The translations under genes were made by a program, and so were the position numbers. Below, in pieces: positions 20,016 through 35,003 of a stretch of 39,950 nt of DNA. A model generated the notes under the pieces. That model was not told where the DNA came from and did not search any database. It saw only the letters and a list, made by a program, of their open reading frames with translations. This DNA is from Pseudomonadota bacterium. Lineage in GTDB: Bacteria; Pseudomonadota; Alphaproteobacteria; Puniceispirillales; UBA1172. Each line of letters opens with the position of its first letter. Positions within the stretch are counted from its first letter, which is position 1. The stretch is taken from contig JAQCJL010000006.1 of the NCBI GenBank assembly GCA_027593125.1, positions 1 to 39,950 on the forward strand, given 5' to 3'.

Positions 20016-21419
20016 CTACCTCCTTATAGTAATGATGTTCTCCAGCATACTTGCCACAGCCAGCAGATCGTCATCACGACCTCCATGTGTTGTGACCAGA
20101 AGACTGGTTGGTCTTTTGTTAATGTTACCTAGTGGGGTCATTGGCATGGCCACACCCGGCAAGTTGAAAATATTGCCTAGCGTTGTGTTACGCAGGGATT
20201 TCAAATTGAACTTATGAAACACACTCTTATCAGCCACGAGAGGGGCTAATTCTGGGGCAACAATTGGTACGGTAGGCATCAGCATGAAACCTGATCCCGT
20301 TTTCTGAATAATTTCAGAAACCCCATCAACCCTTAACCAATGAAGCCGAACAACATCAGACATAGTCATGGTTGACCCACGCATAATGCGGTCTAACACA
20401 CGCTCATCTATACGCGCCCTAACCTCATCCGTGAGCCGATCCCCATATTCATTCCACGCATCAAGGGCCACGATGGTTCCACATTCTTGCATCAGCTCAA
20501 AGCTCTTGGAAAAACAATCCAAATCAATAGGAGTGATGGCATAACCAGCATCCTCAATCATACTGAGAGCGTTTTGATAATCCTCAGCCACTTCAGGGTC
20601 TAAATCATCTAGAACAATCGTCTGCGGCGTGTAAAATTGCGGTTTTTCGGTTCTTGGCGGTGCCTGAACATGATGTTCAGACCGAAAGATCTTATCAATT
20701 GCGGCACAGTCAGCAACCGTCTTTGCCAGAGGCCCAACGGTATCAAATGTACGAGATAAGGGAATAACGCCGCGCTTATCATAGCGCCCCTCTGAGGTTT
20801 TAAGCCCTGTCACACCGTTGTAAGCGGCAGGAACACGAACGGAACCGCCTGTGTCAGATCCAATAGCGATAGGCGCCATATCACGGCCAACCGCCGCCCC
20901 ACTTCCTGATGATGAACCGCCAGGCGAATAAGCCACAGTGTCCGAACATGCATTCATAGGTGTGCCATAATGAGGATTATAGCCAATACCGGAAAAAGCC
21001 AATTCTGTCATATTGAGTTTCCCCAAACTGACCATGCCAGCGGCTTTTGCCTTGGCAACAACAGGGGCATCACTGATGGCAGGTTTAGCCTTTTCAAAAA
21101 CAATGGACGCCGCGGTGGTAACCTCGCCTTCCATATCGTAAAGATCTTTCCACGCTATAGGAACACCATCAAGCGGCGACAATGGCGCTTTGGCATCTAA
21201 CCTTTTATCTGCGGCCTTAGCTTCGGCCATCGCACGACTTTCGGTAATCTGAAGATAAACCGGACTTGATTGTTTCTTGGCGCGATCAACGAAAACCTGA
21301 GCAACATCCACGGCTTTGACTTCGCGGTTATGCAAAGCCTTGCCCAGATTACAGGCAGTCATGGATGCAATATCATCAGGTCTCATAATATTATGCACCA
21401 CCGCTATTGTTGGTTTCAT
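20016..21419 (-). CDS. Amidase-signature family hydrolase
   Basis: Cytoplasmic amidase of the GatA/amidase-signature family, which cleaves primary or N-substituted amides with a Ser-cisSer-Lys triad. All three are visible (numbered from the 21419 start): Lys91 in PIAWKDLYD, cis-Ser170 in SPGGSSSGSGAAV and nucleophile Ser193 in GSDTGGSVRVP. The 467-residue length is normal. The first ATG at 21419 overlaps the upstream ATPase gene by 29 bases; an ATG at 21386, giving MRPDDIASM, sits just past that stop and is an equally good or better start. It may finish ring-opened amides or ureides made by the HyuAB enzymes encoded next. GatA itself is unlikely because no gatB or gatC is nearby and the context is catabolic. 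Confidence 0.88.
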   Translation of the reverse strand: MKPTIAVVHNIMRPDDIASMTACNLGKALHNREVKAVDVAQVFVDRAKKQSSPVYLQITESRAMAEAKAADKRLDAKAPLSPLDGVPIAWKDLYDMEGEVTTAASIVFEKAKPAISDAPVVAKAKAAGMVSLGKLNMTELAFSGIGYNPHYGTPMNACSDTVAYSPGGSSSGSGAAVGRDMAPIAIGSDTGGSVRVPAAYNGVTGLKTSEGRYDKRGVIPLSRTFDTVGPLAKTVADCAAIDKIFRSEHHVQAPPRTEKPQFYTPQTIVLDDLDPEVAEDYQNALSMIEDAGYAITPIDLDCFSKSFELMQECGTIVALDAWNEYGDRLTDEVRARIDERVLDRIMRGSTMTMSDVVRLHWLRVDGVSEIIQKTGSGFMLMPTVPIVAPELAPLVADKSVFHKFNLKSLRNTTLGNIFNLPGVAMPMTPLGNINKRPTSLLVTTHGGRDDDLLAVASMLENIITIRR

Positions 21420-22503
21420 TTAACATGATGCGGCCTTGTTTATCGGACCAGTAGCAGTTGAGAACAGTGCCAGGATTCAAATCTTGACCTTTGACTTTAT
21501 CAACATGTGTATCAATTTTAACAACATCACCATTGGCTAAGGTCATATAGATAATTACGGTATTGAGAACAAAGTTTGCCTGCTTCACATGGCCTGTGAT
21601 GGCGTTAACGCCGCTCGCTTTGCTCTTGCCAAATTGGATATATTCAGAAGGCACCGACAACAATCCTTGCTGGCCTTTTGATATCTTGCCTGCGCCTGCC
21701 ATCCCGGCCTTCAGCACCCCATGTGGGGTTTCAATAGACGCGATACCCCCATTAGCCCCTGAAATCTTGCCTTCAAAAAGGAGGTTCTTTCCAATAAAGC
21801 GCGAAACGAAAGGGGTTTGTGGGTTGAAATAAATATCTTCGGACTTGCCGATTTGTTCCACCCGACCTGCGTTCATCACAACGATACGGTCACCCATACC
21901 TAGGGCTTCGGATTGCGCATGGGTAACAAAAACAAAGGTGATGTTTAATTGCCGCTGAAGAAGTTTCAATTCATCCTGAATGGCGCGGCGCAGATTAGCA
22001 TCAAGCGCGCCTAACGGCTCATCAAGCAAAAGAATTTCAGGCTCGGTAATCAGTCCTCGTGCTAGGGCAACACGCTGTTTCTGTCCACCTGATAGCGAAT
22101 GTTCTCTGGCATCAGCAACACTGCCTAAATCCAACAGATCAATCATATTTCCTGTTTTTTGTCTGATCTCAGAGGCAGAAAGATTTCTAATTTTAAGGCC
22201 AAACTCAATATTCTGACGCACCGTCATGTGCGGATAAATGGCATAATTTTGAAAGATGGTAGCGGTAGGACGCTTCTCAGCCTTGATATGCGTATTATTA
22301 ACGCCGCGAATGTAAAGCTCACCCGATGTGATATCCTCTAACCCTGCGATCATTCTCAAGGTCGTGGTCTTGCCACAGCCTGAAGGCCCGACAAAGGATA
22401 GGAATTCTCCTTTTTCCACCTGAAGGTCAAAGGCCTCAACAGCCAGAGTCCCACCAGGATAAATTTTTGTTATTTGTTTTAGCTCAAGATCAAATTGGGT
22501 CAT
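21391..22503 (-). CDS. ABC transporter ATPase, polyamine/sugar type (complete motifs)
   Basis: ATP-binding subunit of a PotA/MalK-like importer, 370 residues. All catalytic motifs are present: Walker A GPSGCGKT (39-46), Q-loop IFQNY (83-87), signature LSGGQ (137-141), Walker B ILLLDE (157-162) and the H-loop His195 in FVTHAQSEA. After about residue 240 comes a regulatory TOBE-type domain. It lies between the binding protein and the amidase, apart from the two permeases. A second, different ATPase heads the operon at 28145 and lacks the H-loop histidine, so this subunit probably supplies the catalytically complete half of a mixed dimer. Confidence 0.92.
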   Translation of the reverse strand: MTQFDLELKQITKIYPGGTLAVEAFDLQVEKGEFLSFVGPSGCGKTTTLRMIAGLEDITSGELYIRGVNNTHIKAEKRPTATIFQNYAIYPHMTVRQNIEFGLKIRNLSASEIRQKTGNMIDLLDLGSVADAREHSLSGGQKQRVALARGLITEPEILLLDEPLGALDANLRRAIQDELKLLQRQLNITFVFVTHAQSEALGMGDRIVVMNAGRVEQIGKSEDIYFNPQTPFVSRFIGKNLLFEGKISGANGGIASIETPHGVLKAGMAGAGKISKGQQGLLSVPSEYIQFGKSKASGVNAITGHVKQANFVLNTVIIYMTLANGDVVKIDTHVDKVKGQDLNPGTVLNCYWSDKQGRIMLNETNNSGGA

Positions 22504-22576: not shown

Positions 22577-23788
22577 TTAAGCGCTTAGGAATTCATCCCA
22601 CTTCATCATCAGATGATCATACTCATCTGGCCACTGGTGCCAGTAAGTTACCTTTGAGGCACGGTTTGCAAGTGATCCACCATCACGGAGGTCGCCTTCT
22701 TGAATCCCGCGATCAGGGGCACCAACCCAAGGCTTGCCTTCATACCAGAAGTCATACTTTTCTTTTGGCATAGCGTCCTTAATGGTTGTGGTTGGTGAGT
22801 AGTAACCCTGCTCAGATACGGCGATAGCTGGTGGGCCAGACAGCCAGTAATCAGCATAGGCCATAACAGCATCTTCGTTTGGCGTACCATTGATCATGGA
22901 AATACCAATTGACCAACCGCGATAACCTTCTTTTGGTTCCGCGTATGAACATGGAATGCCCTGTGCCTTAACAGCCATAACCGCCGGCTGCCATGCATCA
23001 GCAAGAACCATCTCACCAGAAGCCATCAGGTTAACCAGTTCACCGAAATCACCCCAAAGGGCACGGAACTGACCTTCTTTCTTTTTGGAAACCAGGAACT
23101 TAGAAGCTTCATCAATCTCACTCTTATTTGGGTTACCTGGGTTTGGCACATCCAACATACCAAGTGAGTTCATAGCCAAGATAGCCTGTCCGAATGCGAT
23201 CAATGGATCAACGTTCAGGCCAGTCTTGCCCTTAAACTTCTTGTCGAAAAGTGAAGTCCATGTGTTGGCTTCTTCTGCATCCACAAGGTCAGGACGATAG
23301 CCAATGGAGTCAAAGTTATAAACGGTCGGAACCATCCAAAGTGATGACTGTCCAGCATCTGCCCAAATCTGGCCAGAAATCTGTGCACGCGCTTCCATCC
23401 GTGGGTCAGTCTTTGTGAATGTATCACGAATACTGTTCCAGTTAGATAGCTTAGCTGTTGGAATTGGCTTAATGGTGTTTGTCATTGTCATTGCTGGCAG
23501 ACGCTCACCAATTGTTTCCCAACAATCATAGGCTTTTGAACCTGAAAGCAGTTCTGTCTGGGTGTTCGGGAAAATGTCCCCTTTACCGTTAACAGATCCT
23601 ACCCCTGATTTCTCTTTGAAATCATTCAGGATACGTTCTTGAACCGTCACGGAAAGACCGACTGTTCTTAATTGCTGTTCAGCCAGATGGCCGCCAGCGA
23701 ACAGCTGAGATGGTGTTGAGAGCATAGTGCCCCCAATCGCCATCCCTGTCCCTGCCAGAAACTTACGACGATTTGTATGTATGGTCAT
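22577..23788 (-). CDS. ABC transporter substrate-binding protein, Tat-type signal
   Basis: Periplasmic binding protein of the PotD/family-1 extracellular solute-binding type, about 403 residues. The N-terminus has a twin-arginine signal, NRRKFLAGTGMAIGG, followed by a hydrophobic stretch and a likely cleavage near FAGGH, so it may be exported folded by Tat. The start at 23788 is set by a perfect AGGAGGA box; the longer frame to 23842 would run into the dehydrogenase gene upstream. It captures the substrate for the permease pair encoded upstream. The C-terminal half is clearly homologous to the signal-less protein at 30634-29441 (shared EGKP, GGS and W-D motifs), which suggests related ligands. 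Nature of the ligand is unknown; polyamine-like or cyclic ureide are options. Confidence 0.9.
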   Translation of the reverse strand: MTIHTNRRKFLAGTGMAIGGTMLSTPSQLFAGGHLAEQQLRTVGLSVTVQERILNDFKEKSGVGSVNGKGDIFPNTQTELLSGSKAYDCWETIGERLPAMTMTNTIKPIPTAKLSNWNSIRDTFTKTDPRMEARAQISGQIWADAGQSSLWMVPTVYNFDSIGYRPDLVDAEEANTWTSLFDKKFKGKTGLNVDPLIAFGQAILAMNSLGMLDVPNPGNPNKSEIDEASKFLVSKKKEGQFRALWGDFGELVNLMASGEMVLADAWQPAVMAVKAQGIPCSYAEPKEGYRGWSIGISMINGTPNEDAVMAYADYWLSGPPAIAVSEQGYYSPTTTIKDAMPKEKYDFWYEGKPWVGAPDRGIQEGDLRDGGSLANRASKVTYWHQWPDEYDHLMMKWDEFLSA

Positions 23789-23816
23789 AATATTCCTCCT
23801 TCTAGAAGATTGGTTG

Positions 23817-24569
23817 TTAGTAACGGCCGACCGCAAGCCCACCGTCCACGCTTATCACTTGCCCTGTCAAATATCTGGCTTGTTCTGATGCTAAAAACAC
23901 AATTACATCAGCGATATCATCTGGTTCCCCGATACGACCCATCGGGATGAAAGACCCTGCTTTATCTGCACCTTCTTTCCCAAGTGAATGCTCCTCCGAC
24001 AAAAGCTGGGCAGTACGGATATAGCCCGGGGCTACTCCGTTAACCTTAATCCCGTGTCGTGCCAGTTCCGAGGCTAATCCCCGGACCAAGCCAACAACAC
24101 CTGCTTTTGCCGATGAATAATGTACATGCTCATCCCATCCATACATGACACCCATGCAGGATGAGAGGCAGATAATTGATCCAGCCTTTGCCGCCTTCAT
24201 TGCGGTTAACGCCGGACGAATAACCCGGAACATCCCCTTAAGATCAACATCAAAGGTGAAGTCCCATTTCTCGTCAGTCATCTGATCTAGCGGCACCTTA
24301 TGGGCAATGCCAGCATTACATACAATAGTATCAATAGCGCCATGCGCCTTTTCAACCGCTGCCACCACCTGATTGGCATTTTCGGTTGAAGTCACATCCA
24401 GATGATGAAACTCTGCTGTGCCGCCGGTTGAGGTAATGGCATCAACCACGGCATTCCCTTCGTCTTTGAGAATATCAGTAACAATGACACGATAACCAGC
24501 TTTACCGAAGGCCAATGCCGCCGCCTTACCGATACCAATTCCTGCCCCTGTTATTATTGCCGTTTTCAT
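23817..24569 (-). CDS. SDR-family oxidoreductase (1)
   Basis: NAD(P)-dependent short-chain dehydrogenase/reductase, 250 residues. The dinucleotide loop TGAGIGIG (7-14), the CNAG motif (84-87), catalytic Ser137, and Tyr151-Ser-Ser-Ala-Lys155 are all present; the C-terminal GGLAVGRY is typical of classical SDRs. TDILKD after the second strand, with an acidic residue at the end of beta-2, suggests NAD(H) preference. It follows the second SDR by ten bases in the transporter/hydantoinase operon. It could oxidise a hydroxylated ring or side chain before or after ring opening; the substrate is not deducible. Confidence 0.9.
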   Translation of the reverse strand: MKTAIITGAGIGIGKAAALAFGKAGYRVIVTDILKDEGNAVVDAITSTGGTAEFHHLDVTSTENANQVVAAVEKAHGAIDTIVCNAGIAHKVPLDQMTDEKWDFTFDVDLKGMFRVIRPALTAMKAAKAGSIICLSSCMGVMYGWDEHVHYSSAKAGVVGLVRGLASELARHGIKVNGVAPGYIRTAQLLSEEHSLGKEGADKAGSFIPMGRIGEPDDIADVIVFLASEQARYLTGQVISVDGGLAVGRY

Positions 24570-24579
24570 ACTATCCTCC

Positions 24580-25335
24580 CTACAACATCACATCGCCAGA
24601 ATTAGGCCCAAGCGTTTGCCCAACATATATTCGGGCATCATCTGACGCCAAAAAAGCCACTGTGGCAGCCACATCTGAAGGCTCACCAAACGCACCAAGT
24701 GGCAACTGTGCCGCCTTTGCATCACGCCATTCTTTAGATAATCCCAGAACCAATTCAGTATTGATAGGCCCCGGGGCAACTGCATTAACCCTGATACCCG
24801 ACTGGCCAACTTCACGCGCTAAGGATTTGGTTAGGCCAATAATCGCGGCCTTGGCAGACGCGTAATGCACCAAATCTGCTGCCCCAATCTGACCTAATTG
24901 TGAGGCGGTATTAATGATCACGCCGCGGCCACGTTTCTGCATAATTGGAAGTGCAAAATGACAACCAAGGAAACATCCACGCAAATGCACAGCGATCATC
25001 CGATCCCAATCATCACAAGTCAGATCAACAAATGCTTTTTGTTGCAAAATACCTGCGTTATTGACCACTAGAGACAGATCACCAAAAGTGGCCAATGCCG
25101 CATCAAAAAGCGATTTCATATCAGCCTCTGACGACACATCGCCAGCCATTGTAGCCAGATCCCCTGCGTCAATTCCGCTATTCACCAGGCGAGCTTTCAC
25201 CGCCTCCAACCGATCCGCATCAATATCATTCATCATCACTTTTGCGCCATCATGTGCCAGCCGTTCGGCAATAGCCGCGCCAATGCCTGCGCCGGCCCCT
25301 GTCACGATAGCGATGTGATGAGCAAGATTGGTCAT
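24580..25335 (-). CDS. SDR-family oxidoreductase (2)
   Basis: Second classical short-chain dehydrogenase, 251 residues, with TGAGAGIG (12-19), NNAG (92-95), Ser145, and Tyr158-x3-Lys162. NDIDADR after beta-2 carries an acidic residue and suggests NAD(H). The start overlaps the permease stop by four bases (ATGA). The family's usual C-terminal DGG motif is replaced by PNSGD. With SDR 1 it forms a tandem pair that is clearly different in sequence, so not a recent duplication; the two may act on successive oxidation steps or on two stereoisomers. Confidence 0.9.
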   Translation of the reverse strand: MTNLAHHIAIVTGAGAGIGAAIAERLAHDGAKVMMNDIDADRLEAVKARLVNSGIDAGDLATMAGDVSSEADMKSLFDAALATFGDLSLVVNNAGILQQKAFVDLTCDDWDRMIAVHLRGCFLGCHFALPIMQKRGRGVIINTASQLGQIGAADLVHYASAKAAIIGLTKSLAREVGQSGIRVNAVAPGPINTELVLGLSKEWRDAKAAQLPLGAFGEPSDVAATVAFLASDDARIYVGQTLGPNSGDVML

Positions 25336-26189
25336 GAAATATCCTCTTGCAAGCCTGATGCTTTTGCTCTTTGCCGCCGCGTGGAAACGGTCAGCAAAAT
25401 GCCATAAATGGCTAACAAGGCGAATGAGAACAAGGTTGTTAACACCCCAAACGCAAACAGGTTTGGATGAATTTCTACCGCAAAGGTGCCATAAATCGCC
25501 AACGGCATCGTCACATCAGAACCGCCAGTGAACAATGTTCGCGGAAACTCATCATAGCTAAGCGTAAAGGCAAATAGCATCGCTGATAGAACACCTGGAA
25601 AAATGATTGGGAAAGTCACTTTACGAAATGTTCGAGCTGGGCTGACACCTAAGCTTAGCGATGCTTCTTCAACCGAGGTATCAAAGCGGTTGAAAATTGC
25701 CAGCATCACAAGAAACGCAAAAGGATAGGTATAAACCACATGCAATACAAAGGCTGTCGACCACCAATTCCGGTCAATACCAAGTTGATTAGCCAATAGC
25801 GCCATGCCAAGACCCAGCAAAACACCTGGCACAATCATGCCGAGAATAACCGAGTAGAACACCACGCCTGAGCCGCGGAATTGGCTGCGGAAAGCTTGCG
25901 CTGTGAGAACCCCCATCACTGTTGATACGACCATGGTAGCAAAGGCCAACGATAATGACCGGAATAAAGCTTCACCAATTGGTAATGGCGCAACACGTGA
26001 AGGCGGGGCGATGCCAAAGACATGCTGATACCAATAGGTTGACCATTCAATGATTGGGAATTGCGGTCCACCTTCGGGGCCTTGCTGAAAACTGAGAATG
26101 CCCATGACAATAAACGGGCCATAGAGAAACAGCACAAAGAGCGCTGTAAAGATGCCCAGAAACCATTTTAATGATGCGACTTTATCCAT
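25332..26189 (-). CDS. ABC transporter permease, PotC-like
   Basis: Inner-membrane permease, 285 residues, about six helices. The cytoplasmic EAA loop that contacts the ATPase is visible as EASLSLGVSPARTFRKVTFP around residue 175. The layout (short N-terminus, large periplasmic loop after helix 1, GGSDVTMPLAIYG near 225) is that of PotC-type spermidine/putrescine permeases. It follows the PotB-like permease by 12 bases and is followed by the SDR genes. The two permeases, the Tat-type binding protein and two ATPases probably make one importer. Confidence 0.9.
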   Translation of the reverse strand: MDKVASLKWFLGIFTALFVLFLYGPFIVMGILSFQQGPEGGPQFPIIEWSTYWYQHVFGIAPPSRVAPLPIGEALFRSLSLAFATMVVSTVMGVLTAQAFRSQFRGSGVVFYSVILGMIVPGVLLGLGMALLANQLGIDRNWWSTAFVLHVVYTYPFAFLVMLAIFNRFDTSVEEASLSLGVSPARTFRKVTFPIIFPGVLSAMLFAFTLSYDEFPRTLFTGGSDVTMPLAIYGTFAVEIHPNLFAFGVLTTLFSFALLAIYGILLTVSTRRQRAKASGLQEDIS

Positions 26190-26201: not shown

Positions 26202-27050
26202 TCAAATCTGGTTTCTTAAATTAACAATACGAAGCATGATCGCCACGAAAGTCGCCATGACTACTGTCAGCACCACTCCTGCAACCGCCGCAAAAGCCCA
26301 TTTCAGCGATCCCACCTGCGTGATAATAATATTGCCTAGCAAATTAACTTTGCGGCCTGACAGCGCGGATGCTGTCGCAAACTCACCCAAGACCATTACG
26401 GTGACAAAGATAGAGCCAACGATAACACCAGGCATACTTAATGGCAGAATAATCCGGCGGAAAATTGTTGTTGCCGAGGCCCCAAGATCGCGCGCGGACT
26501 CAATCAAGCTTTCATCAATGCGCCCAATCATAAAGGCAATTGGACCAACCATAAACACCACATAAATCTGCACCATGCCAATGATGACCGACAATTCGGT
26601 AAACAACAGCACTTCAATCGGGGCATCAATAAATCCAATTTTTTGCAAAATAATGTTAATGGCGCCTTCTTTGCCTAGCATAGGTCGCCATGCAAGCACC
26701 CGAATAAGGAATGACGTCCAAAAAGGGATAACGCAAGTGACAAGCAACGCGGTTTGTAGGGTTTTATTTTTAATAAATTGGCCAATAAATAGCGCCACCG
26801 GATAACCTATCACCAAAGTGACAAACAACACGGTAAGCCATATTCTGATAGTTCGTAACAACGCCCCAAAATAGGTGTCTGAGCTAAAGAAATTGACCCA
26901 TGACTGGGTGGTCAAGTCCGGCTTGATGCTAAAGGTCGTCTGAGTCCAAAAGCTGACGTAAACCATCATGATAAGTGGCGCGACCAGAAACAAAAGGATC
27001 CAAATCATCCCTGGTGCAAGTAACAGCCATGTTCCTTTATTTGATCTCAC
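26202..27050 (-). CDS. ABC transporter permease, PotB-like
   Basis: Inner-membrane permease, 282 residues, about six helices, with the EAA loop ESARDLGASATTIFRRIILP near residue 182 and the PotB-like PFWTSFLIRVLAW segment near 111-123 ahead of it. The start is a GTG at 27050 behind a GAGACGG box. It is the second gene of the operon, 27 bases after the H-loop-deficient ATPase, and is expected to pair with the PotC-like permease. Confidence 0.9.
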   Translation of the reverse strand: MRSNKGTWLLLAPGMIWILLFLVAPLIMMVYVSFWTQTTFSIKPDLTTQSWVNFFSSDTYFGALLRTIRIWLTVLFVTLVIGYPVALFIGQFIKNKTLQTALLVTCVIPFWTSFLIRVLAWRPMLGKEGAINIILQKIGFIDAPIEVLLFTELSVIIGMVQIYVVFMVGPIAFMIGRIDESLIESARDLGASATTIFRRIILPLSMPGVIVGSIFVTVMVLGEFATASALSGRKVNLLGNIIITQVGSLKWAFAAVAGVVLTVVMATFVAIMLRIVNLRNQI

Positions 27051-27077: not shown

Positions 27078-28145
27078 TCAGCTAATCAGCTGTTTGTTCT
27101 CATCGTATAAAAGCATATCCGCCGCATCCCAGCTTAGCAGGTAGGCGTTATTTGGATTAAGATGCTTGGGTTCGCTCAGACTCATATGATCTTCGACTTC
27201 GCAAATGCGGTCATCATTAGTCTTAAAGAAATAAATCACTTTATTGCCAAGAAACTCACTGGTTAGAAATGTAGCCTCTAAGCCACTGGCCTTTGCTGTT
27301 GGTTTAGCAATGTCGATCTTATCCATACGCACCGCACAATGGCTGGCACGGCTAATTTTGGCACTTGGCGCCTTACCTTTAAGGCCAGATTTGAGGTGAT
27401 CCGCCATCATGTCACCAGAGAAAATATTAAAGCTGTGCATACTCTTAGCTGTGGTGAGGTCTTGCGGCATGGTGTAAAGGGTTTGCGGTTCGCCCTGTTG
27501 AACGATATGCCCTTCGGACATCACGAGCATTTTCTGCCCCATGGCCAAGGCCTCAAACTCATTTCCCGTCACATGGATAAAGGAAATACCAAGTTCTTTA
27601 CGAATATTTTGAAGCTCAATGGTCATCCGTTCACGAAGATTGGCATCAAGCGCACCAAGAGGTTCATCTAGCAAACAAATTTCTGGGCTAGTAACAAGGG
27701 TCCGCGCCAATGATACACGCTGTTTCTGACCACCAGAAATCTGACCTGTCATTTTTTGTTCTTGCCCAACTAGCCCGACCAATTCAATCATCTCAGACAC
27801 TTTACGTGTGATTAGACTTTCATCCGTTATGCGGTCATTGTTGCGATGCCGTAAGCCAAAGGCGATATTGTCAAACACATTGAGATGAGGAAATAACGCG
27901 TATTTTTGTTGCACAAACCCTATCCGGCGTTCATGACAAGCGCGTTTTGAGATATCTTCACCGCGAAGAATAATTTCACCTGCGTCAGGTTCAAGCAGGC
28001 CAGCAATTATTCGCAGAAGTACCGATTTGCCGCTTCCTGACGATCCAAGAAGAGTAATATACTCATTTTCACTTACCTCAAAAGAGATATCGTTTACCGC
28101 TGGTACGCCAGCAAAACCCTTGGATATCGACCTTACTTCTAGCAC
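27078..28145 (-). CDS. ABC transporter ATPase lacking the H-loop histidine
   Basis: First gene of the 16-kb operon: a PotA-like ATP-binding subunit of 355 residues starting at a GTG. Walker A GSSGSGKS (34-41), Q-loop VQQKY (78-82) and Walker B ICLLDE (156-161) are intact. The signature reads ISGGQ instead of LSGGQ. The H-loop, normally VTHD, reads HVTGNEFEA: codon 194 is GGA (glycine) at 27566-27564, confirmed in the DNA. The H-loop His is needed for efficient ATP hydrolysis in this family, so this subunit is probably a weak or structural partner to the complete ATPase at 22503-21391. A C-terminal regulatory domain of about 120 residues follows. Confidence 0.9.
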   Translation of the reverse strand: MLEVRSISKGFAGVPAVNDISFEVSENEYITLLGSSGSGKSVLLRIIAGLLEPDAGEIILRGEDISKRACHERRIGFVQQKYALFPHLNVFDNIAFGLRHRNNDRITDESLITRKVSEMIELVGLVGQEQKMTGQISGGQKQRVSLARTLVTSPEICLLDEPLGALDANLRERMTIELQNIRKELGISFIHVTGNEFEALAMGQKMLVMSEGHIVQQGEPQTLYTMPQDLTTAKSMHSFNIFSGDMMADHLKSGLKGKAPSAKISRASHCAVRMDKIDIAKPTAKASGLEATFLTSEFLGNKVIYFFKTNDDRICEVEDHMSLSEPKHLNPNNAYLLSWDAADMLLYDENKQLIS

Positions 28146-28407: not shown

Positions 28408-29421
28408 ATGAATTTTGTACACAAAAATACATTGCCACAACCACGATACCGGCAGATCTATGAAGAAATCGCCACAACACTTGAGGCGAATCGCCCCCTT
28501 GATGGGGCACTAGTGAACCTAGGCACGCTTGCCAAAATTTTCAAAACCAGCCGAACCCCCGTCTATCAGGCCTTACAAATGCTGGAAGCAGATAAACGCG
28601 TCAGCCGGGTTGGCCGTAAAGCAGAGTTCATCTTTCATCGCCAAAGTGGGCGCAAGATCCAAACGCCGACAATACCAGTTCGCTATACAGAGACTGATCT
28701 TCGCTCCTTTTTCAAAAATGTTCTGGATACGGAAAAACAGCGTTCTGTTGATTTGCATGAGGACATAGAACAACAAATCGCTAATCTTTTGCCTTTTGGT
28801 GAGTTTTGGGTAAATGAACAAAAAGCAGCTGATCATTATCATGTTAGCCGCACCATTATCCGTCAGGCTTTGTCTAAATTTGCTGAACGCGGTTTGATCG
28901 GAAAAGATTATCGCTCCCACTGGACGGTCGGGCCTTTGACCTCAAAAATGTTGAATGATTTGTTTATCATTCGCTCTAAACTTGAACCCTTAGCACTGAT
29001 AAAAGCGGCTAACCATCTGAACAGCAAGGTCATCCATCAATGGCTAGAGAGATGCCACAACGCCAGAGATAACGCCAAAGACCTTGACCAAGAAACCATC
29101 AAACAGCTTGAAGATGATCTTCATGTGCATCTTTTGGAATATTCTAACAACACCCCCTTATTGCGATTTATCCACCAGTCGCAACTGGCGCTTGTGGTCA
29201 ATGATGTGTTTGCAAAACCGCGCAACACCCGACCGTTTTCAGCTGCGATGACGGAACATATTATGATTTACGAATATCTTTTGCGCGGCGCCATCGAACC
29301 AGCGGCCTTAGCTCTTGAAACACATATTCAGCTATCAGCCAAACGCACGACCCAGCGGCTTAAAGCTTTGTCGATTTTCCCCATGCCGCCCTTACCATCT
29401 TGGTTAACGCGGCACGCCTAA
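28408..29421 (+). CDS. GntR-family regulator with two winged-helix domains and FCD domain
   Basis: DNA-binding regulator, 337 residues, longer than the usual 220-250 of FadR/FCD proteins. Two GntR-like winged helices can be read: residues 12-78, with LAKIFKTSRTPVYQALQML, and residues 115-175, with AADHYHVSRTIIRQALSKF. The C-terminal all-helical FCD ligand domain (about 180-330) has the metal-type residues Asp237, His241, His284 and His306. The ligand could be a small carboxylate or amino acid. It is transcribed divergently from the 16-kb operon and convergently with the PxpABC operon, so it is the obvious candidate regulator for one or both. The tandem head could bridge two operators or bind a longer site. 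Confidence 0.87.
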   Translation: MNFVHKNTLPQPRYRQIYEEIATTLEANRPLDGALVNLGTLAKIFKTSRTPVYQALQMLEADKRVSRVGRKAEFIFHRQSGRKIQTPTIPVRYTETDLRSFFKNVLDTEKQRSVDLHEDIEQQIANLLPFGEFWVNEQKAADHYHVSRTIIRQALSKFAERGLIGKDYRSHWTVGPLTSKMLNDLFIIRSKLEPLALIKAANHLNSKVIHQWLERCHNARDNAKDLDQETIKQLEDDLHVHLLEYSNNTPLLRFIHQSQLALVVNDVFAKPRNTRPFSAAMTEHIMIYEYLLRGAIEPAALALETHIQLSAKRTTQRLKALSIFPMPPLPSWLTRHA

Positions 29422-29440: not shown

Positions 29441-30634
29441 TTATAAAATCCATGGCAGATTTTGCCATTTTCTGACCAGATAATTATGTTCAGGCATGAT
29501 GGTGTTCCAGACACAGGTTTTAGCCATACGGCTTTCTTGGCTTCCACCCGCCCGAACGCTGCCCCGGGGGTAAAGCAAATTGCCGTCATTATCAAAAATA
29601 TCGAACCGCGCCGGTTTGCCTTCAATCCAGTATTCATATTCATGTTGCTGAAGATAATTTTTGACGGCGAAAAGATTGGTAAAATACCCGCCTTGCCGGC
29701 ACAGATACGCCCCTGCCGGGCCCGTCAGCCACCAATTCAGATAATCATAAGCCGCATCAAGTGACCAATCAGGAATAGCCTGAGATAGGGCAAGCCCACC
29801 AAACCACCCCCGATAGCCATTTTGCGGCGCAATCATTTCTACGTCATGCCCTTCGGCGCGAAGACGCATGGCACCTGACCACCAAAGAGAACATAACAAA
29901 GGTTGATCGGGTTTAACCAGATTTGCCAAGTCTTCTTCAACTTCCCAAATCCCCTTGAACTGACCCTGTTTGAGATAGCGATAAATATGCTGAATAAAAA
30001 GATCAATTTCCTCAATGCTGAGGTCTGAGATATCGGAAACCTCTAAATCTCCATTTCCGGTTAACGCCAACAGCATTTCTACCGCACAAATCGCAGAATC
30101 CTTTTGGACAACCACAGCACCTCGCCAAGCCTCACTCACCAAATCTGACCAATCATTGACTTGATCTCGGCTATCTTTACCCCCGTTAATCAGAGCAATG
30201 GTATCAGCATTAAATATCGTCGGCATCATGCTGATTTCGTCCGAGGGCTGGCTCGATAACGACATATCAGGGCCAACATATAGCCGTTCAACCGGAGCAG
30301 ATGATTTCCATTTTTTGTCCTTGATCGGACTATAGGCATTGAGAGCGGAAATGCTGATCTGGTCAAAAGCTTCGATACGATTGATATCAATTGGCATCAA
30401 TGACCCTGTTGGCCAGCTCAAATCGATATCATGAAACCATTGATCATAAACATCGAAACTCTCCGGGGATAGGGCCGCCTGTTGTTGAGCCGTTTCCCCA
30501 TCACGGGTTACCAGATCAAGAGCTATGCCTAAATCTTTTTCTGCATAGCCCTTGAGCACTGGATTTTGGGTCACAGAAGTGCCTAACACCGCAAGCCGGC
30601 GTGTGGAATCCTTGACCAGAGGGGCGCCTAGCAT
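29441..30634 (-). CDS. Solute-binding-protein homologue without signal peptide
   Basis: A PotD-type (family 1) binding-protein homologue of 397 residues, last gene of the PxpABC operon, starting eight bases after pxpC. The N-terminus MLGAPLVKDSTRRLAVLG shows no Sec, Tat or lipoprotein signal, and similarity to the neighbouring binding protein (22577-23788) begins within the first 20 residues at LGTSVT, so only the mature domain is present. The upstream frame has no start codon that would add a signal. The C-terminal part keeps the shared EGKP, GGS and MxxWxx patterns. It is probably cytoplasmic: a ligand sensor, a chaperone for the ring substrate, or a non-transport leftover. Export by an unrecognised route cannot be excluded. 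Confidence 0.82.
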   Translation of the reverse strand: MLGAPLVKDSTRRLAVLGTSVTQNPVLKGYAEKDLGIALDLVTRDGETAQQQAALSPESFDVYDQWFHDIDLSWPTGSLMPIDINRIEAFDQISISALNAYSPIKDKKWKSSAPVERLYVGPDMSLSSQPSDEISMMPTIFNADTIALINGGKDSRDQVNDWSDLVSEAWRGAVVVQKDSAICAVEMLLALTGNGDLEVSDISDLSIEEIDLFIQHIYRYLKQGQFKGIWEVEEDLANLVKPDQPLLCSLWWSGAMRLRAEGHDVEMIAPQNGYRGWFGGLALSQAIPDWSLDAAYDYLNWWLTGPAGAYLCRQGGYFTNLFAVKNYLQQHEYEYWIEGKPARFDIFDNDGNLLYPRGSVRAGGSQESRMAKTCVWNTIMPEHNYLVRKWQNLPWIL

Positions 30635-30642
30635 CCTATGAT

Positions 30643-31614
30643 CTAGGCCAGCGAGCCGCGGATCTGATCCAATAACTGGTGCCGTTCCTTACGAGCGGCT
30701 AGCGCGTCTTCCATGCTTACCGCTTTAAACTTAACCGGTGTATGCGGCTGCAATTGGCCGATATAATCCATATCCGCCGAAATAATCGCCCCAAGGGTAA
30801 AATAGCCACCACCAGAGACCGCATCTCGATGAAGAACAATCGGTTCAGTTCCACCCGGCACCTGAATAGACCCATAAGAATAACAGCCATCAACAATATT
30901 CGATGGATCCGAACCTGCCCCAAAAGGCTGTTCACGATCTACAAACTCCAGCGGCTTACCCCCACGGAACCGATATCCCATGCGGTCTGCCTCTGGGGCA
31001 ACTTTCCATTCATCATTTAGGAATTGTTCCCCTGAAGCATCTGTCAACCGATGCCAATATAATCCCTTAACCATGCGCAAAACCGCAGGGTTTCCAGGCA
31101 TACGGCGATGCGCAGGTGCCACGGTAGCGCCTGTCTTACCTGGGCCTGATTTTCCCAATGGCAGAACATCACCAGCCGCTACATTTCGGCCTTCAACACC
31201 GCCAAGAGCCCCAATCGGATACGTAGACCGACTGCCCAACGCCTCGGGGGTATCAATACCGCCACTAACCGCAATATAAATCCGGGCCCCTGATTGCAGA
31301 AACCCAAAGCTAAGGGTTTGGCCTTTTTTAACAGCGATAGCCGTCCATGTGTTTTGCTCAACCCCATCCAGCATTACTGGCAATTCCGCACCCGTGATGG
31401 CAATCAGGGTATCTTCAGTAAAGGTGATTTCGGGGCCCATAAATACGGCTTCGAGTCCGGCCGCATCCTCGGCATTGCCCACGAGCATGTTCGCCACGCG
31501 CATGGCAAAACGATCCATTGCCCCACCAATAGGAATGCCCAAGTGGAAATATCCCGGGCGACCAAGATCCTGAATTGAGGTCGATAGACCAGGATTAAGA
31601 ATATTAAGCGCCAT
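30643..31614 (-). CDS. pxpC: PxpC / biotin-dependent carboxyltransferase-type subunit
   Basis: 323-residue protein of the PxpC (YbgK, KipA, allophanate hydrolase subunit 2-like) family. Signatures: STSIQDLGRPGYFHLGIPIGGAMD at the start, GPEITF, GSRSTYPIGALGG near 130 and EPIVLHRDAVSGGGY near 258. With PxpA and PxpB it forms the bacterial 5-oxoprolinase; the same fold forms the carboxyltransferase domain of urea carboxylase together with the PxpB-type domain. Its start lies 11 bases inside pxpB, so the two are coupled. The adjacent biotin carboxylase and carrier suggest that here it works in a carboxylation step. Confidence 0.92.
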   Translation of the reverse strand: MALNILNPGLSTSIQDLGRPGYFHLGIPIGGAMDRFAMRVANMLVGNAEDAAGLEAVFMGPEITFTEDTLIAITGAELPVMLDGVEQNTWTAIAVKKGQTLSFGFLQSGARIYIAVSGGIDTPEALGSRSTYPIGALGGVEGRNVAAGDVLPLGKSGPGKTGATVAPAHRRMPGNPAVLRMVKGLYWHRLTDASGEQFLNDEWKVAPEADRMGYRFRGGKPLEFVDREQPFGAGSDPSNIVDGCYSYGSIQVPGGTEPIVLHRDAVSGGGYFTLGAIISADMDYIGQLQPHTPVKFKAVSMEDALAARKERHQLLDQIRGSLA

Positions 31615-32479
31615 TGAGAGCCTCCATCAAACGGGCATTTGTTCCCGTCATATCCTTGTTGAACGCATCCAGATCAAACTCAACTTCAGCCATTTTCGGC
31701 ATAAAGGTGCCGTCTTCAACTTGTTGGCAAATCGCATCATATTCGGCCCGATCGATCGGGCGCCATTTGACGATATCACCGGGACGGAACAAAACCATGA
31801 AATCCTTAAGATAGGTGACTTCTTGTTCAGGGTCATAGATTGGCATAGGAGTGATACCAAACATTTGATATCCGCCTGCCCCACGCACTGAATAGATGCA
31901 GGAAAAACACCCGCCATACCCAACTGTCAGTTTTGGCGTATCTGTCCGAGGCCGCAGATATTTGGGGACTTCGAGCTGTTTTTCTCTTTCGACCAACTGA
32001 TAAAGAAATGGCAAGCCTGCAACAAACCCCACCATCGAAACAAACCATGGTTGCGAATGGTGCGCGGTAATAAAATCTTCAACACTGTCAAAACCGTTGA
32101 TACGCGCAGCATATTCTAGATCCGTTCCGCTTGGGTCTTGGTGCCGCTCCCTAAACCGCATTAAGGTTTCATGGGTCCAAGGGTCCTGATAATAAACGGG
32201 TATCTCAATGATACGCGTATTCATCCGCTTTTCAGCTTTCTCCGCGACAGCCTCTAGCGCTTTTACCTGTTCCAGCAAATCGTCAGGATGAACAACATCA
32301 GGATTAAACTTAACCTGAAAAGAGGCATTCGCAGGACATATTTCTGTCACGCCATCAATTTTTGCCTCTCTGACCGCGTTACTCATGGATAGGCTTTTAA
32401 AGAACGCATCAAGGGACATTTCCTCGTCCATCTCGATGTAAATATGTTCATCACCGCCAAATGTGTATCGTGTTTTCAA
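31604..32479 (-). CDS. pxpB: PxpB / allophanate hydrolase subunit 1-like protein
   Basis: 291-residue member of the PxpB (YbgJ, KipI) family, with the typical IEIPVYYQDPW, FVAGLPFLYQL, PRTDTPKLTVGYG and ITPMPIYDP blocks. It is longer than E. coli PxpB (218 residues): an extra C-terminal segment after residue 240 is rich in Asp/Glu and probably helical. It forms the PxpBC half of the 5-oxoprolinase or a urea carboxylase-type carboxyltransferase. Located 30 bases downstream of the biotin carboxylase gene, with a good ribosome binding site (AAAGGAG). Confidence 0.9.
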   Translation of the reverse strand: MKTRYTFGGDEHIYIEMDEEMSLDAFFKSLSMSNAVREAKIDGVTEICPANASFQVKFNPDVVHPDDLLEQVKALEAVAEKAEKRMNTRIIEIPVYYQDPWTHETLMRFRERHQDPSGTDLEYAARINGFDSVEDFITAHHSQPWFVSMVGFVAGLPFLYQLVEREKQLEVPKYLRPRTDTPKLTVGYGGCFSCIYSVRGAGGYQMFGITPMPIYDPEQEVTYLKDFMVLFRPGDIVKWRPIDRAEYDAICQQVEDGTFMPKMAEVEFDLDAFNKDMTGTNARLMEALNGA

Positions 32480-32509: not shown

Positions 32510-33877
32510 TTAGGGCTTAATCTTTTCAATATTATGTTCCAGCCAGTGTTCTAACCAACCGGTATGCACCTGACCTTCCTTAACCTCATTATCTTTGGCA
32601 AGGGCAATGAGCAGGGGTATTGTTGTTTCAATCCCAGAAATCGTGGTGTTTTCTAAAGCATGATGCATGGCTGCAATTGCCTCATCCCTATTATTCCCAT
32701 GAACAATTAGTTTGCCCAAAAGGGAATCATAGAAAGGGGGGATTGTGTAACCTTCATAGAGGAAATGATCAAACCGCACCTCTGGTGCATGCGCACAGGT
32801 AAGGGTTGTGATCACACCCGGTGATGGCAAAAAATGCATCAGTGGGTTTTCGGCATTGATCCGAACCTCAATGCTATGTCCATTAATCTTGATATCATCT
32901 TGCGAGACGGATAAAGGCGCGCCACCTGCAATACGTATCATTTCTGCCACCAGATCATACCCTGTGATGGCTTCAGTAACAGGATGTTCCACCTGAATTC
33001 GGGTATTCATCTCAATAAAAAAGAACCGTCCAGTTGATTCTTCATAAAGATATTCCACCGTGCCAGCGCCAACATAACCAATATCCCGCGTAAGCTTTAC
33101 CGCCGATTGGCAAAGCTCTTGACGGGTGGCTTCATCTAGGGTTGCTGAAGGGGCTTCTTCCCATATTTTCTGGCGGCGACGCTGAAGCGAACATTCTCTC
33201 TCAAAGAAATGTACCGCCGACTTTCCATCACCCATGACCTGAACTTCGATATGCCGGGCATTAACAACAACATATTCAAGATAGTAACTGCCATCCCCAA
33301 ATGCTGAAACGGCCTCTGCCTGAGCTTGCGGCGCAAGCCGGCGCAAGCTGGCTTCGTCATCAGCAATGCGAATACCCCTTCCCCCGCCACCTGCGGCAGC
33401 CTTAATCATCACAGGATAACCAATCTCATTCGCTACCCGAACCGCCTCATCCAGATCAGAAATGGCCCCATCAGAACCCGGCACCACCGCCACACCTGCT
33501 TTCATAGCAGTTTGGCGCGCGGCAATTTTATTACCCATTTTTTCAATCAAGTCTGCGTCAGGGCCAACAAAAATAAGCCCTGCATTGGCAACCGCACGAA
33601 CAAAATTGGCATTCTCAGAGAGAAATCCATATCCCGGATGGATGGCATCTGCGCCAGCATCTTTAGCGGCAGAAATAATAGCATCATGTTTTAGATACGA
33701 TTGCGCCGCCGACGCCGGACCAATGCAAATGGCTTGGTCTGCCAGCTTTACGGCCAGCATATTTTCATCTGCTTCAGAATAAACCTGAACCGTTTTGATA
33801 CCAAGACTCTTTGCGGCTCTGATAATACGAACCGCTATCTCACCTCGGTTTGCAATAAGTAATGTTTTGATTACCAT
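32510..33877 (-). CDS. Biotin carboxylase (AccC-like)
   Basis: 455-residue ATP-grasp enzyme that carboxylates biotin on a carrier protein using ATP and bicarbonate. Present: NRGEIAVRIIRA (N-terminal domain), GYGFLSEN, the glycine-rich KAAAGGGGRGIR loop near 160-171, EMNTRIQVEHPVTE (catalytic Glu/Arg block) and RINAENP. It lies between the small carrier gene and pxpB rather than next to accB/fabH-type genes, so it probably serves the PxpBC subunits and not fatty-acid synthesis. A general acetyl-CoA carboxylase subunit role is possible but no carboxyltransferase AccA/AccD is here. Confidence 0.92.
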   Translation of the reverse strand: MVIKTLLIANRGEIAVRIIRAAKSLGIKTVQVYSEADENMLAVKLADQAICIGPASAAQSYLKHDAIISAAKDAGADAIHPGYGFLSENANFVRAVANAGLIFVGPDADLIEKMGNKIAARQTAMKAGVAVVPGSDGAISDLDEAVRVANEIGYPVMIKAAAGGGGRGIRIADDEASLRRLAPQAQAEAVSAFGDGSYYLEYVVVNARHIEVQVMGDGKSAVHFFERECSLQRRRQKIWEEAPSATLDEATRQELCQSAVKLTRDIGYVGAGTVEYLYEESTGRFFFIEMNTRIQVEHPVTEAITGYDLVAEMIRIAGGAPLSVSQDDIKINGHSIEVRINAENPLMHFLPSPGVITTLTCAHAPEVRFDHFLYEGYTIPPFYDSLLGKLIVHGNNRDEAIAAMHHALENTTISGIETTIPLLIALAKDNEVKEGQVHTGWLEHWLEHNIEKIKP

Positions 33878-33882
33878 GATTT

Positions 33883-34116
33883 TTATGAAAGCTTTGCTAT
33901 CACCTGTCCTGCCTGAACAGGCTGTTCGTTTTCGACAACATAGCTATCGAATGTTCCCGCATCTGTGGCTTTGACTTCGATGAAGGTTTTCATCACTTCG
34001 ATGAGACCAATGACATCACCCTCGCTAACGGTATCCCCTTTGCTTTTGTAAGCAGGTTCACCCGGAGATGGGGTAAGGTAAAATGTACCTGGAAGAGGAG
34101 ATTGAATATCTGTCAT
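33883..34116 (-). CDS. Biotin carboxyl carrier protein, domain-only (AccB-like)
   Basis: 77-residue biotinyl domain without the N-terminal region and Pro/Ala linker of normal AccB (about 150 residues). The biotin-accepting lysine is Lys43 in EVMKTF; acetyl-CoA carboxylase carriers have EAMKM, so Ala and the last Met are changed. Met-Lys is kept, which supports biotinylation. PSPG near residue 16 and VENEQPVQAGQVIAKL at the end are typical. It starts 45 bases after pxpA and ends five bases before the biotin carboxylase gene. It would shuttle carboxybiotin to the PxpBC subunits. Confidence 0.9.
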   Translation of the reverse strand: MTDIQSPLPGTFYLTPSPGEPAYKSKGDTVSEGDVIGLIEVMKTFIEVKATDAGTFDSYVVENEQPVQAGQVIAKLS

Positions 34117-34161: not shown

Positions 34162-34935
34162 TCATGCCGTGGTTGGGATAGGGGCGGCAATCGTAATCCC
34201 GTTAGCCTTTAGCGCATCATGAATAGCTTGGCCCATGGCTAGCGCACCCGGCGAGTCTGAATGAAAACAAATCGATTCAAAAGCGATATCAATATCATTG
34301 CCATCCACGGTTTTCACCTTGCCTTCCGTACAGGCACGAACACATTTTTCAGCAACAGCTTTGGGGTCAAGTTGGCCCACTTTGCGGGCAAAAACGATAG
34401 AACCGCTATCATCATAATCACGGTCAGCATAAAACTCACGTGCGCTGGGGTAACCTTTTTCCAAAGCAATCTTTCTAGTCAGAGAAATGCCCATACAAAA
34501 GATCATCTGATCAGGACAGGTTTTCATCAAAGTGTCTATCAACATTGTTGAAAGCTCTTCGTTCCGAGCGGCTTCCATATAAAGCATGCCATGCGGTTTA
34601 ACATGCTGAAGTTCAATATCATGGCGGCGCCCAAATTCACGCAGCGCCCCGACCTGATAGATAATATCATTAATCAACTCATCTGAAGGAGTTTGAATAA
34701 ACCGGCGACCAAAACCGCGCAAATCCTGATAGCCAGGATGGGCACCAAGCCCCACACCATAATCTTTTGCTAATTTTACCACCCTATCCATAGAGTTGGG
34801 ATCACCTGCATGAAAGCCAGTGGCCACATTGGCGGAACTAAGAATTTTCATCAATTCTTCATCAGGGGCATCACCAAGCACCCAATGGCCGAAGCCTTCA
34901 CCCATATCACAATTCAGATCAACACTGGATTTCAT
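34162..34935 (-). CDS. pxpA: PxpA / LamB-YcsF family hydrolase subunit
   Basis: Subunit A of the bacterial 5-oxoprolinase, about 257 residues. The family opening [14 protein letters not shown], then [36 protein letters not shown] and FHSDSPGA are all intact, with several His and Asp residues suited to hydrolysis of an activated ring. The frame extends to an ATG at 34989, but GAGGAA directly before ATGs at 34938 and 34935 fixes the start there and removes an 18-residue leader that overlaps a palindrome. It heads the six-gene set pxpA, carrier, carboxylase, pxpB, pxpC, binding-protein homologue. Confidence 0.92.
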
Positions 34936-34986
34936 CATTTCCTCAATGGTTGTTTGTAAGCCATATTCATGCAGAAAATGGCATCT

Positions 34987-35003
34987 CATTAACGTTATTA
35001 ATG
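34987..35003. promoter_or_regulatory. Palindromic operator candidate before pxpA
   Basis: CATTAACGTTATTAATG: 6-base arms CATTAA/TTAATG around 5 bases, about 52 bases upstream of the pxpA start in the 147-base gap after the cupin gene. The flanks are AT-rich and promoter-like on the minus strand. Regulator unknown; the GntR-type protein is a candidate. Confidence 0.45.

Follow-up and report, generated by a model that had tools for sequence, protein, structure and literature searches.

Several described systems come close to the locus reported here. Binding protein and kinase pairs such as TorT-TorS and LuxP-LuxQ work like a kinase-linked family described below, and cytosolic proteins that have a solute-binding protein (SBP) fold with other functions include NMT1/THI5, MqnA and the SBP domain of NrtC. 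In the accessible part of one study, ~1% of the proteins that SBP profiles pick up have a predicted cytosolic location (PMC9602780). For the pxp genes, the available part of a report on Corynebacterium glutamicum describes a GntR-type regulator, PxpR, that regulates pxpTABC and binds 5-oxoproline directly with a KD of 726 nM (PMC13274462). Here we describe a signal-less solute-binding-fold protein, called cSBP below, that is encoded between pxp genes and a GntR regulator in the window (the whole stretch of 39,950 nucleotides that was analysed), and that belongs to a conserved, signal-less SBP-fold family which occupies a single branch, is associated with GntR and has a kinase-linked sister. 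The open-access literature, a scope that leaves most subscription papers outside, yielded no description of this family; one candidate (PMC13390454; signal-less, periplasmic binding protein, GntR) is unrelated, judging from the part of it that is available. The features of the window that the argument needs are these.

21391 to 22503, minus strand: ABC ATPase 2 with canonical VTHA (sequence; relatives)
22577 to 23842, minus strand: paralogous exported SBP with Tat signal, neighbouring ABC operon (28% identity to cSBP; Tat-like leader)
25332 to 26189, minus strand: ABC permease 2, neighbouring operon (open reading frame; orthologues in the same order in related loci)
26202 to 27050, minus strand: ABC permease 1, neighbouring operon (open reading frame; orthologues in the same order in related loci)
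27078 to 28145, minus strand: ABC ATPase 1, switch histidine replaced (VTGN), divergent from GntR (sequence)
28408 to 29421, plus strand: GntR-family regulator, 337 aa, two winged-HTH stretches and an FCD ligand domain (Pfam)
28409 to 28430, no strand assigned: candidate GntR operator, palindrome TTTTGTRYACAAAA, overlapping the GntR start codon (matrix hit)
29441 to 30634, minus strand: cSBP, signal-less solute-binding-fold protein, 397 aa, ATG start (open reading frame list, SBP_bac_8, AlphaFold2)
30643 to 31614, minus strand: pxpC-like carboxyltransferase subunit, CT_A_B (Pfam and NCBIfam scans)
31604 to 32479, minus strand: pxpB-like carboxyltransferase subunit, CT_C_D (Pfam and NCBIfam scans)
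32510 to 33877, minus strand: biotin carboxylase, AccC-like (NF009471 above cut-off)
33883 to 34116, minus strand: probable biotin carboxyl carrier protein (open reading frame; homologues at the same place in related loci)
34162 to 34989, minus strand: pxpA, LamB/YcsF (Pfam and NCBIfam scans)

The gene order is pxpA, biotin carrier, biotin carboxylase, pxpB, pxpC and cSBP, followed by the convergent GntR/FCD gene, 19 bp from cSBP, and by the divergent ABC operon; the EVMKT motif in the product of 33883 to 34116 is presumably the mark of a biotin carboxyl carrier. As an earlier sequence-only reading had it, cSBP is the last gene of the pxp operon, its ATG lying 8 bp past the pxpC stop, and begins at the mature domain with no usable upstream start: the stop-to-stop frame gains only 18 residues (GTAPVIGSDPRLAGLDHR) over the annotated open reading frame, and these 18 codons 5' of the ATG hold no ATG, GTG or TTG and no hydrophobic run. 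The homology that the same reading had proposed to the exported SBP of the neighbouring operon was confirmed by BLASTP (28% identity over 255 aa, E 1e-34), and this Tat-signal protein is the only close homologue of cSBP in its own genome, which holds one further weak and distant match. The Pfam SBP_bac_8 match of cSBP lies right at the cut-off (27 bits), and NCBIfam gave no match and hence no name. Viral contigs and PHROG also gave no match, and a phage origin was rejected on that basis.

An AlphaFold2 model of cSBP (pLDDT 90.6, pTM 0.89, from a 52-row alignment), in which residues 1-7 are of low confidence and the fold begins at about residue 12, had YdcS as its best PDB match (6nlp, Z 31.6, rmsd 3.1 over 328) and PotD (1pot, Z 29.0) and PotF (1a99, Z 28.4) as further matches, so that model, YdcS match and Pfam match together identify a bilobal SBP fold. 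Comparison of 50 signal-less rows with 23 rows of the sister family and with two ABC-linked groups of 8 and 8 revealed residues common to all four groups (N142, D144, W162, W230, R275, W277, R361, R369 and W376), and because of this agreement the SBP core looks preserved in the signal-less family. The residues F67, H68, D71, A181, L299, H383, N384 and R388 set the signal-less group apart and are candidates for a new interface or new chemistry. A polyamine ligand is unlikely, since Asp257 of PotD, which we take to be the amine-anchoring residue, aligns with Gly279 of cSBP (Gly in 94% of signal-less rows) and the invariant Arg275 occupies the position of a PotD Ile.

Relatives of cSBP were gathered by a scan of genome contigs, and the best 80 of 140 (L004-L083) are 93 to 35% identical to the window protein over nearly full length. 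The signal-less group was first set by at least 33% identity to the window protein, a split with which the leader test agrees. Our home-made leader rule called for RR and then, within 28 residues, a 12-residue window of mean hydropathy at least 0.9, and it was applied to the stop-to-stop frame preceding the mature domain. The rule detected no Tat-like leader in the 90 signal-less rows, a few of which are genes fetched twice (e.g. from L004-L007), and flagged 64 of 66 related SBPs, where the two misses were one Sec-like protein and one cut by a contig end; in a check made alongside L118-L140 the rule falsely flagged one signal-less protein, L113. No signal was seen among the best 80 of the 140 relatives, and six further signal-less orthologues came from a phylum sample of 398 genomes. 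The question raised by the sequence-only reading, whether orthologues lack signals too, is thereby answered with yes. SBPs of ABC importers carry a Sec or Tat signal and cSBP carries none; the neighbouring ABC importer has its own Tat-exported SBP, and cSBP is probably not its receptor. Two plasmid-borne orthologues without a signal, L085 and L088, from Klebsiella pneumoniae and Agrobacterium tumefaciens, bear the name 'signal peptide prediction'. Two genomes of the phylum sample, G090 and G286, hold broken or partial cSBP-like frames, one with an internal TGA, which suggests gene decay in some lineages.

The cSBP of the window is under purifying selection, with a dN/dS of 0.045 against the 93%-identical orthologue L004, a value because of which we do not regard it as a pseudogene; with the orthologues likewise signal-less, a 5' loss in this genome was also rejected. 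That cSBP might be a decayed or 5'-truncated exported SBP, or might be exported signal-free by hitch-hiking on a Tat substrate, would agree with nearly all outside relatives being exported, but this is hardly credible when the dN/dS is so low, the whole family is signal-less and the other products of the operon are cytoplasmic enzymes by family. On the strength of the conserved signal-less family, the conserved core and the purifying selection, we infer instead a ligand-binding protein located in the cytoplasm.

In phylogenetic trees a single branch separated the signal-less rows from all others, with a support of 94 (44 rows); the same split had a support of 84 when the nearest exported family was added and the window included (50 rows), and 95/86 in a careful search from which six long or fast rows, the window's genus among them, were left out. 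The nearest exported family, seen in the 398-genome sample (L118-L140), is 28-33% identical to the window protein and forms the sister group of the signal-less proteins in the trees. Tat-like leaders were called by rule in 21 of its 23 members, and the two failures were L137, which resembles a Tat leader but is under the hydropathy limit, and L139, which has KR for RR. Every one of 24 sister loci (L118-L140 and L148) has a co-directional sensor kinase downstream of the SBP, separated from the end of the SBP match by 11 to 141 bp in 23 of them and, in L134, by 500 bp to the start of the kinase match, and none of the 24 has an ABC subunit beside the SBP; the two kinases that were scanned are HAMP-HisKA-HATPase-receiver proteins. 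Near the loci preceding L118 only one weak kinase match was found (L032), so that cSBP lacks the adjacent kinase of kinase-coupled sensory SBPs while sharing a common branch with them. With a sensor kinase after the SBP in all 24 sister loci and an ABC transporter beside it in none, the branch that gave rise to the signal-less family already looks sensory. A Tat-exported SBP and the sensor kinase that directly follows it, with no ABC transporter beside them, form a sensory pair present in many genomes of the phylum sample.

The reading that we prefer, at a probability of roughly 0.4, is that cSBP is the cytoplasmic ligand-binding partner of a GntR-controlled cyclic-amide operon, a sensor and not a carrier. 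GntR occurs with cSBP in 77 of 80 genome loci (the best 80 of 140 relatives), 48 times in the flank and 29 times by whole-genome search; that search was positive in 29 of 31 loci (L078 is also positive, and L004 lies outside the search), and the two without a GntR match, L042 and L044, count against the partnership. Across 41 related genomes, cSBP was found in five (G000, G001, G003, G005 and G006), the GntR profile in these five and in G002, and pxpC in two genomes besides the five, G004 and G016, in which the PxpABC operon is accompanied by neither cSBP nor this GntR. PxpABC was therefore discarded as an obligate partner, and cSBP tracks GntR rather than PxpABC in these relatives; G002 was not counted as a cSBP-free genome, as its contig stops inside GntR and the absence of cSBP is thus not shown. 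The 398 genomes gave strong GntR matches (>290 bits) in six and strong cSBP matches (>560 bits) in seven, window included, the odd genome being G384, whose contig ends before the expected GntR; weaker GntR matches of 196-253 bits belong to other branches. Linkage of GntR and cSBP is present in loci with and without a CobW cassette. Because genes of one cluster co-occur anyway, such phyletic linkage is no proof of contact.

The regulator of the window has the winged-HTH and FCD architecture, with Pfam GntR matching in two stretches (best 14-74) and FCD at 184-308. Since its FCD domain keeps the histidines H239 and H306 (25 of 25 rows each) and H284 (24 of 25), GntR may sense the ligand by itself, without cSBP; and as far as the available part of the C. 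glutamicum report goes, PxpR senses 5-oxoproline without an SBP, which argues against the need for a second sensor (PMC13274462). The palindrome TTTTGTRYACAAAA is the top match of the whole window, at 17.6 bits, to a matrix built from the GntR promoters of relatives (8 training sites chosen by eye, with the window left out), and its position at the GntR start codon would fit autoregulation; no operator upstream of pxpA is among the window's 14 top-scoring matches to the matrix.

Evaluating the surroundings of the signal-less genes more widely, we used 85 listed loci, consisting of the best 80 of 140 contigs and 5 plasmid stretches, of which L084 repeats L041 and some have short flanks. Profiles identified a CobW-type G3E GTPase and a polysaccharide-deacetylase-like protein in 59 of the 85 each, a small protein with an MCGxCG start in 57, an amidase in 54, GntR in the flank of 53, an exported SBP in 46, MFS in 23 and NCS1 in 8. 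The immediate neighbour of cSBP is G3E only in 49 loci, GntR only in 21 (16 antiparallel, 5 co-directional) and both in 9; in the remaining 6 neither adjoins, two of these (L004 and L020) being cut by contig ends. Altogether GntR adjoins cSBP in 30 loci, co-directionally in 14 and only 1 bp apart in L088. That a CobW-type GTPase rather than GntR is the immediate neighbour in 49 of the 85 counts against cSBP as a GntR sensor.

This GTPase is the basis of the main rival, which we consider unlikely: cSBP would be an enzyme or a subunit of one, the SBP fold having been recruited to catalysis; it might depend on a metal, and the G3E/CobW GTPase and the MCGxCG protein would mature it. The accompanying genes in 59 and 57 of the 85 loci speak for it, as do the signal-less-specific residues F67, H68, D71, H383, N384 and R388, which are possible metal or catalytic ligands, and a precedent exists in COG0523 proteins, which the accessible part of one source treats as putative metal chaperones, one of them activating nitrile hydratase (PMC2770081). 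The tight pairing of the two genes also speaks for an enzymatic role: G3E is found directly upstream of cSBP, in the same direction, in 58 of the 85 loci, and on two annotated plasmids the genes overlap by 4 bp. Speaking against it, 26 of 85 loci, those of the window's type included, have no G3E in their flanks, the MCGxCG protein was unmatched in 7 genomes of the window's genus (a search run without a positive control), and the only CobW-type gene in that genus is unlinked and also present in G004, which has no cSBP; for this lineage CobW was accordingly dismissed as an obligate partner. The MCGxCG protein is ~100 aa long, starts with MCGxCG or MCSxCG (e.g. L036:6594-6896), is encoded next to the CobW-type GTPase, with a gene for a deacetylase-like hydrolase, an amidase or an SDR on its other side, and has no match in Pfam, NCBIfam or PHROG.

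The same neighbourhoods bear on whether cSBP could carry or buffer substrate in the cytoplasm and pass it on to PxpABC here and to the deacetylase-like hydrolase or amidase elsewhere. Its place at the end of the pxp operon and the presence of the hydrolase in 59 and the amidase in 54 of 85 loci would suit such a role, but the adjoining enzyme changes (PxpABC, deacetylase-like, HyuAB) while cSBP stays constant, PxpABC operons without cSBP exist in G004 and G016, and we know of no precedent for an SBP that passes its ligand directly to a soluble enzyme; we regard a carrier as distinctly improbable, more so than an enzyme. The sequence-only reading had proposed a cytoplasmic ligand-binding protein, coupled to a ring-opening enzyme, that could sense or hand over the substrate. 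Location and binding hold up as probable on the evidence of family, core and selection given above, whereas the coupling is not a constant feature, with pxpC near cSBP in only 13 of 85 loci and cSBP absent from the two operons just named. Between the two functions, we favour sensing over hand-over because GntR/FCD stays with cSBP and the sister family is wired to sensor kinases.

A further alternative is that cSBP regulates the ABC importer from inside by trans-inhibition, acting on the degenerate ATPase 1, for which the cytosolic SBP-like domain of NrtC and CmpC offers a precedent. The lack of the switch histidine in ATPase 1 (VTGN, versus VTHA in ATPase 2) would be in line with this, and so would divergence between the window and L005, where cSBP (69% identity), GntR (62%) and ATPase 1 (72%) are the fastest of six genes, against 94% for the second SBP, 92% for permease 1 and 84% for pxpC. 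The VTGN change is kept in the related loci in which ATPase 1 was called (L005-L019), which suggests an asymmetric ATPase pair. An ABC permease pair is, however, absent from the flanks of 38 of 85 loci, some of them on short contigs, and MFS and/or NCS1 genes are present in 25 loci, 24 of which belong to these 38. The family thus persists in loci that rely on MFS or NCS1 rather than ABC genes for uptake, and trans-inhibition is very unlikely.

Returning to the sensor that we prefer, the family of stand-alone cytoplasmic SBP-fold proteins would have a single origin, in Tat-exported sensory SBPs that lost the export signal. The protein would stay in the cytoplasm, where its ligand would be an imported cyclic amide or imide or the product of opening that ring. 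In its closed form it would act on a partner in the cytoplasm, most probably the GntR by which the operon for uptake and ring opening is controlled, so as to report intracellular substrate just as the sister reports periplasmic substrate to its kinase. The broader proposal, that a formerly periplasmic receptor of a hybrid kinase became a detachable ligand subunit of GntR for cyclic amide and imide breakdown throughout alpha-, beta- and gammaproteobacteria and with any transporter, is one that we put forward only tentatively. Database entries label members of the signal-less family 'extracellular solute-binding protein', although their probable location is the cytoplasm. Should these proteins be sensors, the SBP fold can be moved between compartments and partners, from a kinase to a DNA-binding regulator, by the loss of one short peptide, and the family would offer a way into the sensing of cyclic amides, imides and hydantoins by bacteria, with the sister family as a natural control that has the same fold in the periplasm.

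Set beside known systems, cSBP has the same fold as PotD, PotF and YdcS of the SBP_bac_8 family and keeps the Trp of the PotD motif at W277, but differs from them in having no export signal, in Gly279 for the PotD Asp and in Arg275 for the PotD Ile. NMT1/THI5, MqnA and the NrtC domain share with it a cytoplasmic SBP fold but belong to other SBP families, whereas cSBP stands alone, resembles PotD and is associated with a regulator of its own. PxpR, as portrayed in the available part of its description, resembles the GntR of the window in being a GntR regulator beside a pxp cluster, and differs in having a single HTH in ~205 residues and sensing alone with no SBP, against two HTH stretches and an FCD domain in 337 residues here (PMC13274462). 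The Tat-exported SBPs of the kinase-linked sister family share the branch of cSBP, most of its conserved residues and the lack of an ABC partner, yet they are exported and have a membrane kinase as partner, while cSBP is signal-less and is encoded next to GntR or a CobW-type GTPase.
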